Below, piece by piece: positions 39,016 to 49,368 of a stretch of DNA of 64,000 nucleotides. The stretch covers positions 1 through 64,000 of the forward strand of contig JAIOPP010000024.1 in assembly GCA_021413845.1 (NCBI GenBank), in the 5' to 3' direction. The stretch's first letter is position 1. Every line of letters starts with the position of its first letter. The DNA is from Planctomycetia bacterium (GTDB taxonomy: Bacteria; Planctomycetota; Planctomycetia; Pirellulales; PNKZ01). The notes beneath the pieces are model-generated. The model was not told where the DNA came from. It saw nothing but the letters and a program-made list of their open reading frames with translations, and made no database searches. A program made the position numbers and the translations under genes.

Positions 39016-40545
39016 TTAAATCGACAGCGAGTAGACCTCGGGCACGACATGCTCGGTCTTCACTTCGCCGAACAACGTGAACGAGTTGGCGTCGTAGATC
39101 GTTACCGGAAGGAACCGGCCGATTTGGCGAGGATTGCCGTCGAACACGACGATCCGATCACAGTTCGTCCGGCCGACAAGCTGCAACGGGCCATGATGAT
39201 GATCATGGTCGCCGTCATCATGGCTTTGCACAGCCTCATCCTCCGCTTGCGGCTTCGCCGACGACTTCGTCAAAGGGAGCGCGCTCGGCGACGTCGCATC
39301 TTGCTGCGCCTCGCCGCGGACATGCTTCCGGCTCGGGCCTTCGACGAGAATTTCGACATCACGGCCGATGAACGGCTGGTTGTCTTCGTAGCTGTTCTTA
39401 TTCTGCACTTCGAGTAGCTCGACGTTACGGCGACGCTTCACTTCTTCCGGCACGTCATCGGGCCAGAGATCGTCGGCCTTCGTCCCTTCGCGTGGGCTGT
39501 ACTTGAATATGTAGCTGTTCTTAAAACGCTGCTCGGCGACCAAGTCCATCGTCTTTTGAAAGTCTTCTTCGGTCTCGCCGCAGAAGCCGACGATGAAGTC
39601 GCTCGTAACGCTCGAATCGGGAATCGTTTCTCGAATCCGACACATCATCTCGCGATACTGCTCGACGGTGTAGTTGCGCTTCATCCGTTTCAGCACTTCG
39701 TTCGATCCGCTTTGCGCAGGAACATGTAGGTAGTGCGAACACTTCTTAATGTCGCGCACCGCCTCCAGCAAATCCTGCGTCATATCGTTCGGGAAGCTCG
39801 TCACGAAACGCAACCGATCGATGCCCGACACTTCGCTCAATTGAAGCAGTAAATCGCTCAAGCGCGTCGTCCGGCCGTCGGCTGTGTGGCGATAGCTGTT
39901 CACGGTCTGCCCGAGCAGCGTGATCTCGCGGCAACCTTCGTCGGCGAGTTTGCGCACTTCCGAAAGAATTTGCGCTGCCGGCCGGCTTTGCTCCGGTCCC
40001 CGCACTTTCGGCACGATGCAATAGGTGCAGAACTTATCGCAGCCGATCATGATCCGCACGAAAGCCTGGTAGCGCGACGGCCGCATCGATTCATCGCGCA
40101 GCGGGTCGTAGCTCTCGAAGCTGCGCTCGACGTCGCGACGAGCCCCTTCCTTGCGGTCGAGGCTCACTTCCATCTGCCGCCCTGCCCCGGCCTTGATCTG
40201 GTCGACGAGTGCGGGAATCTGATGGAGTTGGCCCGGCCCGACGACGAGATCGACGTACGGTGCACGATCGAAAACGATCTTCTGATGGTTCTGGGCCATG
40301 CAGCCGATCACGCCGATGATCTTCTCGGGATGCTGTTGCTTATGGATCTTCAACCGCCCGAGGTTGCTGTAGATCTTCTCTTCGGCATGCGAACGGATGC
40401 TGCAAGTATTGAAGAGCACGAGATCGGCGGCCAACGGATCGGCGGTCATCTCATAGCCGCGATGGCGCAGATCGGCGACGACCAACTCGCTGTCGAGCAT
40501 GTTCATCTGGCAACCGACCGTTTCGATATAAAGCTTACGAGTCAT
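39016..40545 (-). CDS. miaB: tRNA-2-methylthio-N6-isopentenyladenosine synthase
   Basis: A radical SAM methylthiotransferase that modifies A37 of tRNAs reading U-starting codons. The N-terminal cluster uses cysteines in VGCQMN, NTCSIR and IGCMAQN, and the SAM cluster is CDKFCTYC. The end is a TRAM domain, but between its strands lies an extra stretch at about residues 405-452, low in complexity, with HDDGDHDHHHG. The usual length is 440-475; here it is 509. The start is ATG 40545 with GAAGG upstream, and a TTG at 40551 is less likely. A 49-residue membrane protein gene lies 51 bases upstream, and glnE follows. Confidence 0.94.
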   Translation of the reverse strand: MTRKLYIETVGCQMNMLDSELVVADLRHRGYEMTADPLAADLVLFNTCSIRSHAEEKIYSNLGRLKIHKQQHPEKIIGVIGCMAQNHQKIVFDRAPYVDLVVGPGQLHQIPALVDQIKAGAGRQMEVSLDRKEGARRDVERSFESYDPLRDESMRPSRYQAFVRIMIGCDKFCTYCIVPKVRGPEQSRPAAQILSEVRKLADEGCREITLLGQTVNSYRHTADGRTTRLSDLLLQLSEVSGIDRLRFVTSFPNDMTQDLLEAVRDIKKCSHYLHVPAQSGSNEVLKRMKRNYTVEQYREMMCRIRETIPDSSVTSDFIVGFCGETEEDFQKTMDLVAEQRFKNSYIFKYSPREGTKADDLWPDDVPEEVKRRRNVELLEVQNKNSYEDNQPFIGRDVEILVEGPSRKHVRGEAQQDATSPSALPLTKSSAKPQAEDEAVQSHDDGDHDHHHGPLQLVGRTNCDRIVVFDGNPRQIGRFLPVTIYDANSFTLFGEVKTEHVVPEVYSLSI

Positions 40546-40596
40546 GAGCAACCTTCAATAACTTCGCACATAGGAGTTCGCCGCGCGATTCGGCAG

Positions 40597-42674: not shown

Positions 42675-42704
42675 TTGACTCTCATGCGGCAAGCGGCCTA
42701 GAAT
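42675..42704 (+). promoter_or_regulatory. Strong promoter of the VWA-ExbBD operon
   Basis: TTGACT (42675-42680), 18-base spacer, TAGAAT (42699-42704): five of six in each box. The start point should be near 42711, inside the first TTGCGCAACGA site, with a 70-base leader to the first gene. Confidence 0.65.
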
Positions 42705-42753
42705 TGCGCAACGAATCTCGCAATTCCTTTCCATAGAACGGGTTGCGCAACGA
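42704..42753. promoter_or_regulatory. Paired TTGCGCAACGA operator-like sites
   Basis: The 11-base word TTGCGCAACGA occurs at 42704-42714 and 42743-42753, centre to centre 39 bases apart. Its first eight bases are a perfect palindrome. The first copy shares its first base with the -10 box and covers the predicted start point, so a bound protein could block the promoter. Two same-oriented copies suit a repressor of the downstream operon. Confidence 0.5.
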
Positions 42754-42780
42754 CACACCACCTCGCAAGCGTTTTTCCGC

Positions 42781-43818
42781 GTGTCCCGAACCTCAACTCC
42801 AAACCTACCGCTGCCGACCGCCGACGCCGCCTCGGCCCGATCATCCAATGATCCGGTTCGTCGTTGGGTGGTGATGCTGGAGACCTGGGGACTTTCCGTC
42901 CTATTCCACGTCTCGCTCATCGTCGTGCTTGGGCTTTCGTGGAAAGCGACGACAAAGCCCGCCGGTGCGGCACCGGAGATTCTCCGCACCGTCGAACTTG
43001 TGGCGAAGCGCGAGTCTGCCGAGGGACCGGTCTACGTCGATCGTGCAGCGGCCGAAGCGCAAGCGGCTGCCGCGGCAGCGAACCCGTCCCCCGTCAATGT
43101 TCAGCAACTCTTAGGGGGCGGCGGAATGCAGTCGCCGGTCGACATCGGCTCGGCTCTGCCGAAAGCGGCCGACGTCGCAGGCCTCGGGCTCGGTAGCGGC
43201 CCGCCGATGTTGGGTGGCGGCAACTTATTGGATGGCCCCTCGGCCAAGACTTTTCCGGCCGGCGGCAAGGCTCGCACCAAGGTCTACGGCCTAAACGGCG
43301 AAGGGTGGAAATTCGTCTACGTGTTCGATCGCTCGGGCAGCATGGGAGGCTCCGGCAATCGAGCGTTGAACTCCGCCAAGAACGAGCTGCTGAAAAGCAT
43401 CGCCGACCTCGGTGAGACGCATCAGTTTCAAATCATCTTCTACAACGAACAACCGACGATCATGAAGTTCAACGATTCGTCTCAACTGATGTTCGGCAAC
43501 GATGCCAACAAGAAGCAGGCCCGTTCCTTCGTCGGCGGGATCACGGCCGACGGCGCTACCGCTCATGAACCGGCTCTCTTACTCGCCCTGCAACTTTCTC
43601 CCGACGTTATCTTCTTCCTCACCGATGCCGATCAGCCGGAACTCTCACCCGCTCAGTTGCAACGTATCCAACAGCGTAACAAAGGCGGTGCGACGATCAA
43701 CACGATCGAATTCGGACTCGGGCCGAAGATCCGCAAAGAAAATTTTCTCGATCGCCTCGCCGCGCAAAACAACGGCGGCAGCGTCTATGTCGACATCAGC
43801 GCTCGCGCAGCGCCCTAG
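42781..43818 (+). CDS. Membrane-anchored von Willebrand factor A protein
   Basis: A 345-residue protein with a GTG start. A membrane helix lies at about residues 36-55 (GLSVLFHVSLIVVLGLSW), an Ala/Pro/Gly-rich linker follows, and the VWA domain starts near 170 with MIDAS motif DRSGSM (about 183), a threonine in ITADGAT and FFLTDAD. All metal residues of the MIDAS are present, so it should bind a partner protein through Mg2+. It opens a six-gene operon with ExbB/ExbD proteins; the VWA is expected outside the inner membrane. No clear ribosome site precedes the GTG; a later start is possible. Confidence 0.85.
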   Translation: MSRTSTPNLPLPTADAASARSSNDPVRRWVVMLETWGLSVLFHVSLIVVLGLSWKATTKPAGAAPEILRTVELVAKRESAEGPVYVDRAAAEAQAAAAAANPSPVNVQQLLGGGGMQSPVDIGSALPKAADVAGLGLGSGPPMLGGGNLLDGPSAKTFPAGGKARTKVYGLNGEGWKFVYVFDRSGSMGGSGNRALNSAKNELLKSIADLGETHQFQIIFYNEQPTIMKFNDSSQLMFGNDANKKQARSFVGGITADGATAHEPALLLALQLSPDVIFFLTDADQPELSPAQLQRIQQRNKGGATINTIEFGLGPKIRKENFLDRLAAQNNGGSVYVDISARAAP

Positions 43819-43862
43819 ACGTCACGACTCCTTAACTTCTCTCATGCCTTCTTGGTCGCGCC

Positions 43863-44900
43863 GTGTTCAATCGCCCGCTACTCTGGTTCACGCTCGCCGG
43901 CTTCGCCGCTTGCGGCACCGCGCATGCGCAAACGCCGACACCGCTCGACACGGTCGTCGTCGCTCCCCGTCCGGAAGAGCCGGGCCGGATCATCATGACG
44001 GGTCGCATCGTCGACTACACCGGTGCGGCACTCGTGATCGAGCTTTCCTCCGGAAAGCAAACCGTGCCCGGCAAGCGCGTCGTCGAAGTTCGCAGCACTT
44101 GGTTACCGGAGCAACTCGCGGGAGAAGAGCTTTGGCGCAGTCGCGACTACGCCGCCGCTGCGGCGAAGTTTCAAGCCGCGCTGGCCGGTGAGCAACGGCG
44201 CTGGGTTCGTCGCAAGCTGCAAGCGCGCATCGTCGATTGCTTGCGCGAAGACGAACGTTGGGGGGCGGCGGCCGATCACTTTATTGCGCTCATTCGCGAC
44301 GATCCGACGACCCCCTATTTCACTTCGATCCCCCTCCCCTGGACCACGATATTCCCCGATCCGGTATTAGAAAAAAAGGCCCAGGGTTGGGCCGCCGATC
44401 GGAATACTTCGGCGGCCGCGCTGTTCGGCGCTGCCGTGTTGCTTTCGACTCCGGCTCGCGCCGAAGGGATCAATCGCTTGAAGGAACTCGCGCTCGACGG
44501 CGACGCGCGCGTGGCGCTTTCGGCCGAGGCTCAACTGTGGCGCAGCGCGGCCGTGACGGCGGACAACGCCACCGTACAGACCTGGGAACGGATGCTCGAT
44601 AAGCTCCCCGCCGATCTCGCGGCGGGGCCGGCCGTAGTCGTCGGACGCGCCTGGGCTCAGCGAAACGAACCGGAACGCGCGGCGCTGGTGTTGTTACGCG
44701 TGCCGATTCTGCATGCCGATCAACATCGACTCGCCGCCGAAGCGCTTTGGAGCGCAGGCCAGATGCTCGAACGACTCACGCAACCGAACCAAGCCGCCGA
44801 ACTTTATCGTGAACTAAGACGCGACTTTCCGAAGGCATCGGTCGCCGCACAGGCGGGCGATCGCTTGAAGGAACTCCGAACTGAACTCAAAACGGAATAG
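43863..44900 (+). CDS. Secreted TPR-like protein
   Basis: A 345-residue exported protein with a GTG start and a signal peptide (LLWFTLAGFAACGTAHAQ). An N-terminal small domain (RIIMTGRIVDYTGAALVIEL) has an OB- or SH3-like strand pattern. Helical TPR-type pairs follow (AAAAAKFQAALAGEQRRWVR, AAEALWSAGQMLERLTQPNQ). The stop is 18 bases before the ExbB-like gene. As a helical repeat protein it is likely to link the VWA protein with outer-membrane or peptidoglycan partners; this is inference from the cluster. Confidence 0.8.
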   Translation: MFNRPLLWFTLAGFAACGTAHAQTPTPLDTVVVAPRPEEPGRIIMTGRIVDYTGAALVIELSSGKQTVPGKRVVEVRSTWLPEQLAGEELWRSRDYAAAAAKFQAALAGEQRRWVRRKLQARIVDCLREDERWGAAADHFIALIRDDPTTPYFTSIPLPWTTIFPDPVLEKKAQGWAADRNTSAAALFGAAVLLSTPARAEGINRLKELALDGDARVALSAEAQLWRSAAVTADNATVQTWERMLDKLPADLAAGPAVVVGRAWAQRNEPERAALVLLRVPILHADQHRLAAEALWSAGQMLERLTQPNQAAELYRELRRDFPKASVAAQAGDRLKELRTELKTE

Positions 44901-44918
44901 ACCGAAGGACGAACCGGG

Positions 44919-45809
44919 ATGGAACGCATGGATGGACAACCTGACGCGAACTCGTACGCACGACTAACGAAACGTGGATGGTCGCGCTACGCGACTCCCT
45001 GCGCCGTTGCGATCGTCGTTTTAGGCGCGATCTTGGTGACAACTTCGCTCGAAGCGCAATCTGCGGCAAAGCCTGCGGCCGGAAACACGAAACCTTCGGC
45101 GGCTGCTCCCGCGGAGTTCGACAACAGCTTTTTCGGCATGATTAAAGCCGGCGGTTGGGTCGGCCATACGATCATTCTGCTGTCCGTCGTGGCGGTTTCG
45201 ATCGCGATCGAACACTTACTGACGATTCGACGTAAGACGCTGATTCCAGCGAGCCTGCCGGAAAAAGTGCGCGATCTGCTGCGTGCCGGGCAATACGCGC
45301 AAGCCGATCAACAATGCCGTTTGCAGCCGAGCACGTTGGCGTCGGTGTTGCAAGCGGGCATCGGCGAGATCGACGGCGGCTGGCCGGTCGTTGAGAAAGC
45401 GATGGAGGACGCGATGGGAGAACAGGCCGCGAGGCTGCATCGCAAAGCGGAATATATTTCCGTCATCGGCAACATCGCACCGATGCTCGGGTTGCTCGGC
45501 ACCGTGATCGGGATGATCGAAGCGTTCAGCGTCGTCGCCGAATCGCAAGGGACCGCGAACGCCGGCGAACTGGCACGGGGCATTTATCTGGCGCTCGTCA
45601 CGACCGTCGAAGGGCTCGTCGTCGCGATTCCGGCATTAGCCGTGTTCGCGATCTTTCGCAATCGGATCGACGGACTCGTCGCCGAGACTGCTTACGTCGC
45701 GCAGCATGTGTTTGCGCCGTTGCGTCGGGCCGCGGCCGCCGGCGCAATCTCTCCGCCACCGACGCGGCGCCCGGCTCCTCCTCCGCCGCCGATCGCGGGA
45801 CCGGCCTAA
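44919..45809 (+). CDS. MotA/TolQ/ExbB proton channel protein
   Basis: A 296-residue membrane protein. A signal-like helix lies at about 29-46, and the ExbB core has helices near 80-98, 180-200 and 214-238. The core motif APMLGLLGTVIGMIEAF and VTTVEGLVVAIPALAVF are the family signatures. A basic cytosolic stretch lies between helices one and two (LHRKAEYISVI). The C-terminus is proline-rich (PPPTRRPAPPPPPIAG). Together with ExbD it forms a proton-driven complex. The ExbD gene overlaps its stop codon by one base (TAATG), so translation is coupled. Confidence 0.92.
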   Translation: MERMDGQPDANSYARLTKRGWSRYATPCAVAIVVLGAILVTTSLEAQSAAKPAAGNTKPSAAAPAEFDNSFFGMIKAGGWVGHTIILLSVVAVSIAIEHLLTIRRKTLIPASLPEKVRDLLRAGQYAQADQQCRLQPSTLASVLQAGIGEIDGGWPVVEKAMEDAMGEQAARLHRKAEYISVIGNIAPMLGLLGTVIGMIEAFSVVAESQGTANAGELARGIYLALVTTVEGLVVAIPALAVFAIFRNRIDGLVAETAYVAQHVFAPLRRAAAAGAISPPPTRRPAPPPPPIAGPA

Positions 45810-46231
45810 TGCGACTCCCCAAAAACAAAGATCGCGGAAGCCTCGAGTTCAACATGACGCCGATGATCGACGTCACGTTTCAACTCATCATTTTTTTTCT
45901 CGTATCGAGCCACTTGGCGAAGCAAGAGACCCTCGTCGAGCTCGATTTACCGTCGGCCGAAAGCGGCGTCGAAACGCTCGAAGAAGATGCCCATCGCCGG
46001 TTCACGGTCAACGTCACTCTCGACGGCGGTTTAGTCGTCGCCGGAGAATCGCTCGACGAATCGCAACTCGGACGACGCCTTGCCGCACAGCGCGCCAAGA
46101 ACGACAAGCTCGAAGTGCGCATTCGAAGCGACCGCCAAGTCGAATACGGCCGCGTGAAGCCGATCTTGAAAGAGTGCTTAAAAAACGATGTTTGGAAAGT
46201 GACTTTCGCGGTCATGAAGCAAGGCCCGTGA
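45809..46231 (+). CDS. ExbD/TolR protein 1
   Basis: A 140-residue protein with a short basic cytosolic head, one membrane helix with the proton-carrying aspartate in MTPMIDVTFQLIIFFL, and a periplasmic domain of about 95 residues with the ExbD/TolR strand-helix order (FTVNVTLDGGLVVAGESLDE, LEVRIRSDRQVEYGRV). Its ATG overlaps the ExbB stop. It is the first of two ExbD paralogues here. Confidence 0.92.
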   Translation: MRLPKNKDRGSLEFNMTPMIDVTFQLIIFFLVSSHLAKQETLVELDLPSAESGVETLEEDAHRRFTVNVTLDGGLVVAGESLDESQLGRRLAAQRAKNDKLEVRIRSDRQVEYGRVKPILKECLKNDVWKVTFAVMKQGP

Positions 46232-46308
46232 AGATATGCTTTTCCTTTCGTCATCCGTTCTTAGCGATTCCGCAGTCATCATAATTTAGATCTTCGTCAT
46301 CCACGCCC

Positions 46309-46770
46309 ATGCGTCTTTCCGGCTACCAACGCTCCTCCGCGACGCGATTCGATTCGCAGATGACGCCGATGATCGATGTCGTGTTTCAGTTGCTGATCTT
46401 CTTCGTCTGCACCGTCAGCTTTCAGAAACAGGAGCAATCGCTTCCTGCGACTCCGCGCATGTCCGCGAGCGCCGGTGGAGGCAAGGTGGCCGATCGCCCC
46501 CCTCCCGAACTCGAAGACTTGCAGCAAGTCGAGCTATCGCTTTCGCGTCGCGGCGGGGCCACGGAGTGGAACGTGAACAAGGATGTTTGCCGGACGCTGG
46601 CGGAGGTTCGAGCCAGGCTCGCCGCGCTGGCCCGCATTGCGCAGTACAAGACGATCGTCCCTGTCGTGCTCGATGCGGCCGACGACGTCCCTCTGGCCGA
46701 TGCGATCGATGCCTACGATCTTTGCCTTCGGCTTGGCTTCCAGAAGGTTCAATTCGTCACGCCGGAATAA
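46309..46770 (+). CDS. ExbD/TolR protein 2
   Basis: A 153-residue paralogue of the preceding protein. It keeps the aspartate in MTPMIDVVFQLLIFFVC and has a Gly/Ser-rich linker (SASAGGGKVADRPP) before the periplasmic domain, which is less like the first copy. The two may form a hetero-oligomer with ExbB. It is 77 bases after ExbD 1 and 18 bases before the TPR gene. Confidence 0.9.
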   Translation: MRLSGYQRSSATRFDSQMTPMIDVVFQLLIFFVCTVSFQKQEQSLPATPRMSASAGGGKVADRPPPELEDLQQVELSLSRRGGATEWNVNKDVCRTLAEVRARLAALARIAQYKTIVPVVLDAADDVPLADAIDAYDLCLRLGFQKVQFVTPE

Positions 46771-46788
46771 ATTAGCTGCTAGTTCGCC

Positions 46789-49368
46789 ATGCGCAAGACG
46801 TCGCTCATCCTCGTTTTTAGCTTGTTCGCAATTTCATGGGCGACCTCGGCGCCGGTGCGCGGTGATCTTTCGGAAACCTCGGAAGCCCGTTACCTCGCAG
46901 GGTTGCGCGAGCGTCGGTTGTTTTCGCTGGTCGAAGCGTATTGCCGACGCCGGCTCGGCGAGGCTTATCTCATCGAGCGGCGTCGGGCCGAGCTCACGGT
47001 CGAACTGAGTCGCACGGCTCTCGAAGCGGCGCTATTCGCGAAGTCGCCGGAGCGCGAAGAGCTCGCGGCCCGCGCGCTGAAGATCGTCGACGATGAACTC
47101 CGCAACAAACCATCGAGCGCATGGCGACCGCTCCTCGACGTGCAGCACGGCCTCGTCGACCTCGTGTGGGGAGAGCGCTTGCGCGAAGAGGCGCAACTGT
47201 TGGACGTCGGCGAGCCGCAACTCGAACAGGCCCGCGCACGATTGCGAACCGCCGTGATGCAACTGAAGCAGGCTCGCACCACGCTCGAAGAACGACTTCG
47301 CGAGCTGAATCGGACACGGCCGAGCAATGTCGATTCGCCGCTGAACTCAGATGTTCCCGACGCCGATGATTGGGCTTCGTTGCGACGCAACGTCGACTAT
47401 CAACTCGGTCGAGCTTATCGCAATCAAGGAGAAAGCTATCCGCCGCGCAGCGCCGACCGAGCCTCTTCGCTCGAACTCGCCATCGAGACGTTCGAGTCGC
47501 TCACGCGCGCCGAGTCGACCGACTCGATCACCTGGCAAGCCCGGCTCGAAGAGGTTACGTGTAAGCGATTGCTCGGCGACCTCATGGCCGCCGAGCGTGT
47601 ACTCGATCTCGTCGATGCGCAGGCTCCTCCGGCCGATGTGGCCGATCGAGCGCGGGCCCAGCGCATTCGAGTGCGCATTCTTGCCGGTCGACTCGACGAA
47701 GCGCGCAAGTTTCTCAGGCCGGAAGATACGGATGCCGCGAGCAATGCCGATGCCGACGTGCGACTCGCTGCGCTCGAATGGCTGATCGCATCGACCGTGG
47801 CCGAAGAGAAAGCCGGCCGCACGAGCGAAGCCACGGAAGTTCGCGCCCGCGCCGGAGCGCTGACGAGGCTCATCGCCGAGCGGCAAGCACCGTACTGGGC
47901 TCGACGCGCCGAAGCATTGGCGGCGAGCGCCGTCGCAACTTCACCGGCGGGTCATGGCGACTCTTCGCTCGCGGTCGCGGCGGCGAGCTTCTATCGGCAA
48001 GGAAACCTCGACAAAGCGATCGAGATTTACGACCAACTCTTCACACAGGCTTGGTCGAAGCGGCAGCAAGAACTCGCCTTCGATGCGGCTTTCACGGCCG
48101 GAGCGATCGAGCAAGGCCGCAAACGCCACGAAGCCGCGGCCGAGCGATTCGCAAAGCTTTCGCAAACGCTTGCCGATCATCCTCGCTCCGCCGAAGCGCA
48201 GCTCTTGGCTTCTTATAACCTCGGTCAAACGCTGCTCGCGACGCAAGCGAATCCCGATCTGCTGCAAGCCGGCCTTGCGCGTTACGCGCAATCGCTCGAA
48301 ACGCAGATCAGGCAATGGCCGAACGCGAAAGAAACGGCGCAAGCCCGCGTGTGGCTCGGCCGATTGCGCACGCAGCAACGAGCATGGGACGCCGCGGCGC
48401 AAGCGTTCGGCGCCGTGGGGCTCGACGCGTCCCTCGCGCTCGAAGCGGTACAAGGATTGATCTATTGCCGTTCCGCACAGCTGGCTGCACTGCGCGCCGC
48501 GGCACAGCCCACCGAGCCGGCGTTTTCGGTCATCGAAATTGAGCTGAGTCGTTACGTGCCGGGCTATCCCGATCGAATCGCATCGCCGATGCCGCCTGCT
48601 TCGAGAGCCGCCGCGATCTCGCTGGCGAAACTCGGGCTCCTTTACGGCAAGCAGGACTTTGCATCCGGATCTTCGGCAACACACGCATTGAGCTTGATCA
48701 CGGCCGTGGCCGGCGAACCGGAATTACCGGCCGAGGAAAGATCGACGATAGAGGTGTGGATGATCGCCGCACTCAGCGCGACGCATCGGCTCGACGATGC
48801 GCTAAAGCGAGCGGTGCAACTCAAGACCGCGAATCCGCGCGACGCGTCGGCGGTCGTCCAACTTCTCGATGCGATGCCGACCGCAAGCGACGGTATCAAT
48901 TTAGTTCGGGCTCAAACCGTGATGCGGCTGATCGGGCTGCTTCCATCGCAACGAGAACTGCTGAACGCCACGGAGCGGTTGCCGGTCGATCGGGCGGAGG
49001 CGCGTGCGCTCGACTTGCTCGGCCCTGCCGGCGAGACACGTCGTGCGTACGATGCGCTCGCGCGCAACTATCCGCAAGACGGCGATGCGCAGCTTGCTTA
49101 TGCGGAGTTCTTGTCGAAGCAGACGGATCGAGAATCGCTCACGATTGCAGCGGCGAAGTGGCGTGAGATCGAGCGAGCCTCCTCCGAGAGTTCGCCTCGC
49201 TGGTATCGCGCGCGACTCGGCATGGCCGAAGCATACGACAAGCTCGGCGACCGCGCTCGGGCCAAGCAACTCATCGAACTAACCCAAGCATTGCATCCCG
49301 AACTCGGAGGCCCGACGTTGAAGCCGAAGTATGATGCGCTGCTGATGCGGTTGAACACGACGAAGTAA
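46789..49368 (+). CDS. Large secreted TPR protein of the ExbBD operon
   Basis: An 859-residue exported protein; the signal peptide ends near SWATSAPVRG. Most of the chain is helical with TPR-type pairs, for example SLAVAAASFYRQGNLDKAIE and EAQLLASYNLGQTLLATQAN, ending GDRARAKQLIELTQALHPEL. No enzymatic domain is evident. A large TPR protein after ExbD is a recurring planctomycete arrangement. Its size suggests a scaffold reaching toward the cell wall or outer layer. It is the last gene; the stop lies 17 bases from that of ptsI, which converges. Confidence 0.85.
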   Translation: MRKTSLILVFSLFAISWATSAPVRGDLSETSEARYLAGLRERRLFSLVEAYCRRRLGEAYLIERRRAELTVELSRTALEAALFAKSPEREELAARALKIVDDELRNKPSSAWRPLLDVQHGLVDLVWGERLREEAQLLDVGEPQLEQARARLRTAVMQLKQARTTLEERLRELNRTRPSNVDSPLNSDVPDADDWASLRRNVDYQLGRAYRNQGESYPPRSADRASSLELAIETFESLTRAESTDSITWQARLEEVTCKRLLGDLMAAERVLDLVDAQAPPADVADRARAQRIRVRILAGRLDEARKFLRPEDTDAASNADADVRLAALEWLIASTVAEEKAGRTSEATEVRARAGALTRLIAERQAPYWARRAEALAASAVATSPAGHGDSSLAVAAASFYRQGNLDKAIEIYDQLFTQAWSKRQQELAFDAAFTAGAIEQGRKRHEAAAERFAKLSQTLADHPRSAEAQLLASYNLGQTLLATQANPDLLQAGLARYAQSLETQIRQWPNAKETAQARVWLGRLRTQQRAWDAAAQAFGAVGLDASLALEAVQGLIYCRSAQLAALRAAAQPTEPAFSVIEIELSRYVPGYPDRIASPMPPASRAAAISLAKLGLLYGKQDFASGSSATHALSLITAVAGEPELPAEERSTIEVWMIAALSATHRLDDALKRAVQLKTANPRDASAVVQLLDAMPTASDGINLVRAQTVMRLIGLLPSQRELLNATERLPVDRAEARALDLLGPAGETRRAYDALARNYPQDGDAQLAYAEFLSKQTDRESLTIAAAKWREIERASSESSPRWYRARLGMAEAYDKLGDRARAKQLIELTQALHPELGGPTLKPKYDALLMRLNTTK

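Follow-up and report, generated by a model that had tools for sequence, protein, structure and literature searches.

A conserved six-gene VWA, TPR, ExbB and ExbD operon of Pirellulales planctomycetes, a putative proton-driven trans-envelope machine

The window analyzed here, the whole stretch of 64,000 nucleotides from the genome of a Pirellulales planctomycete, carries six open reading frames on the + strand (42781-49368) coding for a VWA protein, a first TPR protein (TPR1), an ExbB, two ExbD proteins (ExbDa and ExbDb) and a second TPR protein (TPR2). The closest named match, 77% identical in the VWA protein, comes from Pirellula sp. PB1.007. Window positions are as follows.

42675-42704, + strand: single match to a sigma-70-like promoter (TTGACT-18-TAGAAT) ahead of the VWA gene; not significant
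42781-43818, + strand: VWA force-transducer-like protein, 345 aa, GTG start; N-terminal transmembrane (TM) helix, linker, C-terminal VWA domain
42886-42945, + strand: TM helix of the VWA protein, about residues 36-54, reading WGLSVLFHVSLIVVLGLSW
42895-42897 and 42907-42909, + strand: S39 and H43, forming Ser-x3-His, the TonB/TolA motor-docking signature
42943-43290, + strand: linker of the VWA protein, residues 55-170, ~116 residues, Gly/Pro/Ala-rich
43327-43626, + strand: metal site (MIDAS) of the VWA protein, D183-x-S185-x-S187, T260, D282
43863-44900, + strand: TPR1, 345 aa, exported; N-terminal beta domain and TPR solenoid
44919-45809, + strand: ExbB/TolQ-family motor subunit, 296 aa; Pfam match, conserved pore threonines
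45809-46231, + strand: ExbDa motor dimer subunit, 140 aa; TM aspartate D21 at 45869-45871
46309-46770, + strand: ExbDb, a second and different ExbD, 153 aa; TM aspartate D23 at 46375-46377
46789-49368, + strand: TPR2, 859 aa, exported; all-alpha TPR-type solenoid

In all six genes divergence from a same-genus relative fell mostly at third codon positions; therefore, we consider these frames to be real genes under protein-level selection. The six-gene set named in the initial annotation was thus confirmed. Its coupled starts were seen at a single junction, where the start of ExbDa overlaps the stop of ExbB by 1 base; the other neighbors are separated by 44 bp (VWA/TPR1), 18 bp (TPR1/ExbB), 77 bp (ExbDa/ExbDb) and 18 bp (ExbDb/TPR2). 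The start of the element at 42675 had to be given up: this position is the −35 box of the lone promoter-like site (one such site observed, 1.7 expected by chance), and the first gene begins at 42781.

The motor subunits were identified by Pfam, with matches of ExbB (E=1.3e-28) and of the two ExbD proteins (1.8e-24 and 8.9e-17) all above the cut-offs. The Pfam VWA match of the window protein was just under the cut-off (E=2.3e-5); its identity is nevertheless firm, as 20 of 24 VWA homologues matched VWA_2. A profile search of the PDB gave inter-alpha-trypsin inhibitor heavy chains (ITIH) as the nearest solved relatives of the VWA domain, with other VWA proteins also matched. Among the TPR proteins, TPR1 had a weak Pfam match and TPR2 had none; however, TPR families dominate among the matches of their homologues, and AlphaFold predicted for TPR1 (pLDDT 94) a beta domain of five strands at the N-terminus (residues 29-77) and a TPR solenoid behind it (82-344), and for TPR2 (pLDDT 91) an all-alpha TPR/alpha-solenoid fold. 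Relatives and models together make both TPR identities firm. The NCBIfam family YbgF/CpoB matched both proteins weakly, while fold searches of the two returned generic TPR/solenoid matches only (BamD, YbgF, LGN, SKI3, Ctr9 and a Campylobacter periplasmic flagellar scaffold). These matches give no functional pointer, and they barely cover the beta domain of TPR1.

The pore threonines of ExbB, T195 and T229, were invariant in 67 homologues; the TM aspartate motif was present in all 62 homologues of ExbDa and was found in 53 of 57 homologues of ExbDb. Residue E176 is functionally important in E. coli ExbB. The corresponding position of the window ExbB is occupied by leucine (L224), with a glutamate at position 231; across the family we saw mainly two combinations, Q224/G231 (33 sequences) and L224/E231 (21 sequences, the window among them). 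Such a coupled swap could shift charge along the ExbB helix. The ExbB-ExbDa-ExbDb motor looks competent. The host genome (G000) has nine genes of the MotA/TolQ/ExbB family (contigs C8, C20, C23, C24, C51, C93, C124 and C133), several of them within ExbB-ExbD clusters.

The VWA protein shares its plan with TonB and TolA. S39 and H43 were invariant in the alignment of 24 homologues, and Ser-x3-His was located within a hydrophobic helix in 98 of 109 distinct homologues, the usual form being P-A-W-x2-S-x3-H-x6-L, with leucine at +11 of the motif in 75 of these 98; the final serine of the SHLS motif (+15) was not conserved at the TonB spacing. Residues 36-53 of the helix include no acidic residue. 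Just past the helix, at the place of the TonB/TolA motor box, there is a conserved hydrophobic segment, PEILRTVELVAKR, a candidate motor box assigned from position and sequence. All MIDAS residues (D183, S185, S187, T260 and D282) were invariant in the 24-homologue alignment; their conservation in a larger set of 80 loci is partly circular, these loci having been found with VWA motifs. Having TonB/TolA architecture and sitting in the position of TonB, the VWA protein is predicted to be the transducer arm of the motor rather than a passive part of a scaffold. The initial annotation, which saw in the VWA and TPR proteins a scaffold and reported no TonB, is to be modified in both respects: no match to the TonB C-terminal domain (PF03544) was found on the contig of the window (C24), but the VWA protein is itself built on the TonB/TolA plan, with the S39-x3-H43 helix, the linker and a globular end domain. 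The host genome's two TonB C-terminal-domain matches are on contigs C23 and C84; the one on C23 adjoins a MotA/TolQ/ExbB-family gene.

The neighborhood of the VWA gene was surveyed in 82 distinct loci of Pirellulales, those where the available sequence was long enough for a test. These fell into the following groups: (i) all six genes, in the order VWA-TPR1-ExbB-ExbDa-ExbDb-TPR2 without exception (38 loci); (ii) VWA and motor with a partner missing or undetected (9 loci); (iii) VWA and both TPR genes without the motor (9 loci, the TPR genes being fused in four); (iv) VWA and one TPR gene (7 loci); (v) VWA alone (19 loci). Motor genes were thus in place at 47 of the 82 loci. The linkage of VWA and TPR genes assumed in the initial annotation was borne out, at least one TPR gene lying beside VWA in most testable loci; the motor genes, on the other hand, proved to be separable and were absent from many relatives. 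We counted the persistence of TPR1 and TPR2 beside VWA where the motor is absent in favor of a VWA-TPR partnership. In one genome (G014) the run TPR1-ExbB-ExbDa-ExbDb-TPR2 is placed on a different contig from VWA; in another (G022) the motor lies with TPR2, far from VWA. Fusions of TPR1 and TPR2 into a protein of ~1160-1300 aa, the motor genes between them gone, were observed at loci L044, L048, L051, L055 and L056.

The arrangement extends beyond the order. The identical six-gene order is also present in L202 and L205, from two distantly related planctomycetes outside the class, TPR1 of L205 being recognized from its position and sequence character only. In Planctomycetaceae the run VWA-TPR1-ExbB-ExbDa-ExbDb is kept and TPR2 is absent from it; two members (L222 and L223) have an inserted lspA-like gene, a gene for a penicillin-binding protein downstream and divergent lptF/G upstream (the neighbor identities are backed by Pfam for L222). 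Within Pirellulales the commonest outside neighbors in 113 distinct loci, named from sequence, were def and fmt, which are neighbors in the window as well; miaB and glnE also recurred, and no receptor or porin family was recognized among the recurrent neighbors of these loci. A MiaB-like protein is encoded in the window as well (39016-40551, − strand), with an insertion near the C-terminus that includes an Asp/His-rich stretch, SHDDGDHDHHHG. Two relatives have, besides the main cluster, a second, diverged VWA...ExbB-ExbDa-ExbDb-TPR2 cluster (L184:5818-12360 and L185:5247-11664). Two further VWA proteins of the window's own genome (L079:5809-6903 and L080:8613-9689) carry the Ser-x3-His TM helix, with no motor genes detected alongside.

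Presence of the motif and presence of the motor went together in one direction. Ser-x3-His was kept in all 27 scored genomes with an orthologous ExbB motor, and its losses were confined to genomes without one, a signal peptide replacing the helix there. A Fisher test of motif versus motor gave p=0.012 with related genomes counted as independent; three of its rows call for caution, one because the segment is not a TM helix (G052) and two because the contigs end near VWA (G001 and G004). Since the genomes are related, we use the association as a pattern only. Most motor-less genomes retain the Ser-x3-His helix and have other ExbB genes; either another motor must serve there or the motif has a further use, and docking of the VWA helix onto a substitute motor is possible. 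Overall, we regard coupling of the VWA arm to a motor as well supported.

Planctomycetes are diderm, and many of them divide without FtsZ. In a set of 57 genomes, gathered by whole-protein search unlike the motif-found 80 loci, VWA matches were present in 55/57 relatives (a few are weak and may be paralogues), TonB_C in 24 and Plug receptors in 31. TolB_N was matched in none of the 57 genomes, the host included, while the positive controls, E. coli and two others, were matched. Across these relatives the VWA system is therefore found more constantly than TonB, in an order without recognizable TolB. OmpA-type domains were present in 56 of the 57, and a Tol-Pal-like system without recognizable TolB may exist in these genomes. 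The system cannot be strictly essential throughout the order, as some genomes lack the motor.

An arrangement of this kind, for which the initial annotation knew of no assigned function, had already been described by Williams-Jones et al. 2025 (PMC12204202), where the function is likewise not known. These authors reported, in PVC and other bacteria, Planctomycetes among them, vWA force transducers encoded beside TPR, tolQ-like and paired tolR-like genes, with docking of the transducer helix outside the motor predicted by AF3; the linker of their family is disordered and has a motor-box strand. The operon of the window is a member of this class: common to both are the TM helix with S and H, a linker of ~100 residues and the VWA end domain, as well as a tolQ-like gene, two different tolR-like genes and an adjoining TPR gene. 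Differences were seen in gene order (VWA is downstream of the motor in the published loci and is the first gene in the window), in the presence of two distinct TPR proteins in the window (TPR1, which is short and has a beta domain, and TPR2, a solenoid of 859 aa) and in the SHLS motif, whose last serine is not conserved in the window's family. New relative to the published description are the presence of two TPR proteins, the invariable order of the six genes and the depth to which it reaches, a motor that can be separated, the lack of TolB across the relatives and the conservation of residues.

Likeness to the TonB-ExbB-ExbD system includes the motor subunits, the S-x3-H TM helix and the extended linker; the window differs in that VWA stands where TonB has its C-terminal domain, in having two ExbD proteins and in lacking a TonB-dependent receptor at the locus. 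With TolQ-TolR-TolA (Tol-Pal) it shares a motor, a single-TM transducer and a periplasmic TPR partner, an arrangement resembling that of CpoB; however, TolB is missing from the genome and from 56 relatives, VWA replaces the end domain of TolA, and the TPR proteins are far larger or differently built. A second family of the same authors, TPH-vWA with TolQ only (PMC12204202), also combines VWA with a TolQ-like motor; its helix carries the proton Asp and it has no ExbD, whereas the window has ExbD proteins and a VWA helix without Asp. A plain TonB system was rejected because no TonB C-terminal domain is encoded at the locus, plain Tol-Pal for lack of TolB, and the TPH-vWA type because of the two ExbD genes and the helix without Asp. 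A MoxR/Bat (BatA-BatC) aerotolerance-type operon, in which a MoxR AAA ATPase gene accompanies the VWA and TPR genes, appears unlikely: no AAA ATPase was recognized by eye among the recurrent neighbors in the 113 loci, some of these neighbors also having been run through Pfam, and TPR2 has only a weak NCBIfam match to BatC. Neither the Planctopirus essential-gene paper (PMC10632474) nor a Verrucomicrobium paper mentions these genes in its main text under the terms looked for.

Conversion of proton flow into force on a VWA/TPR apparatus, as the initial annotation proposed, is still the best-supported reading. With a probability of roughly 0.6, these genes specify a trans-envelope force machine powered by protons, whose VWA arm works on TPR scaffolds in the periplasm to keep up the envelope. 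Proton flow would be turned into rotation by an ExbB pentamer whose pore holds an ExbDa/ExbDb heterodimer (a presumed 5:2 stoichiometry). The VWA protein would dock outside the motor via the Ser-x3-His helix, like TonB and TolA; the pull would be relayed through the linker to the periplasmic VWA domain with its metal site, and this domain would engage TPR1 and TPR2, or a partner held by them. Force would then reach the outer membrane or the cell wall; its direction, like any cargo, we infer. The likeliest job would be envelope upkeep, the role of Tol-Pal in other diderms; we place it first because of the distribution (VWA in 55/57, TonB in 24/57, TolB in 0/57) and the gene context. Against the reading as a whole we count the unconserved final serine of SHLS, the replacement of E176 in the ExbB family, mostly by Q or L, the many relatives with S-x3-H but no orthologous motor, the genomes that have lost the motor, and the OmpA-type domains in 56/57 genomes. 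One could speculate further that planctomycetes without TolB rely on such a VWA-armed ExbB-ExbD-ExbD motor, with its own TPR scaffold, as a general machine tensioning the outer membrane and the cell wall, a metal-dependent grip replacing Tol-Pal; this broader claim is tentative.

Surface uptake, suggested in the initial annotation, is one candidate output among several. The same motor and arm could energize uptake of polymers or proteins, with VWA opening a gate in the outer membrane that the TPR proteins hold. Uptake of dextran into the periplasm of Gemmata obscuriglobus was abolished by the protonophore CCCP (0 of 816 cells, versus 23% of 1,065), by a mechanism not known (PMC5394234), and a motor of this type does depend on the proton gradient; however, CCCP acts on many processes, the top recurrent neighbors are def and fmt with no receptor or porin family recognized among the recurrent ones, and the neighbors in Planctomycetaceae are lspA, the penicillin-binding protein gene and lptF/G. 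We thus consider an uptake function unlikely. Somewhat less probable still is that the VWA and TPR proteins form a scaffold for assembly or quality control whose basic function is free of force, the motor being an accessory dropped by several lineages. The nine motor-less loci that keep VWA with both TPR genes, four of them with fusions, would agree with it, as would the VWA homologues with a signal peptide instead of a TM helix; against it, the motor is in place at more than half of the testable loci, and most genomes lacking the motor retain S-x3-H and possess other ExbB genes. The intact MIDAS site, along lines suggested by Williams-Jones et al. (PMC12204202), would also suit a machine for surface adhesion or gliding, with VWA as a metal-dependent adhesin like the myxobacterial CglB; yet the VWA protein is anchored in the membrane and its linker is short, and its near order-wide distribution fits housekeeping better than motility, so that we give this explanation very little weight.

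A trans-envelope force machine for envelope upkeep can be put to experiment in Planctopirus limnophila, for which genetic tools and a transposon essentiality map make the system testable. If the reading is true, the docking helix of TonB and TolA can take an unrelated grip. Being nearly universal in an order without recognizable TolB, and probably driven by protons, such a machine is a strong candidate for attaching or energizing the outer membrane.
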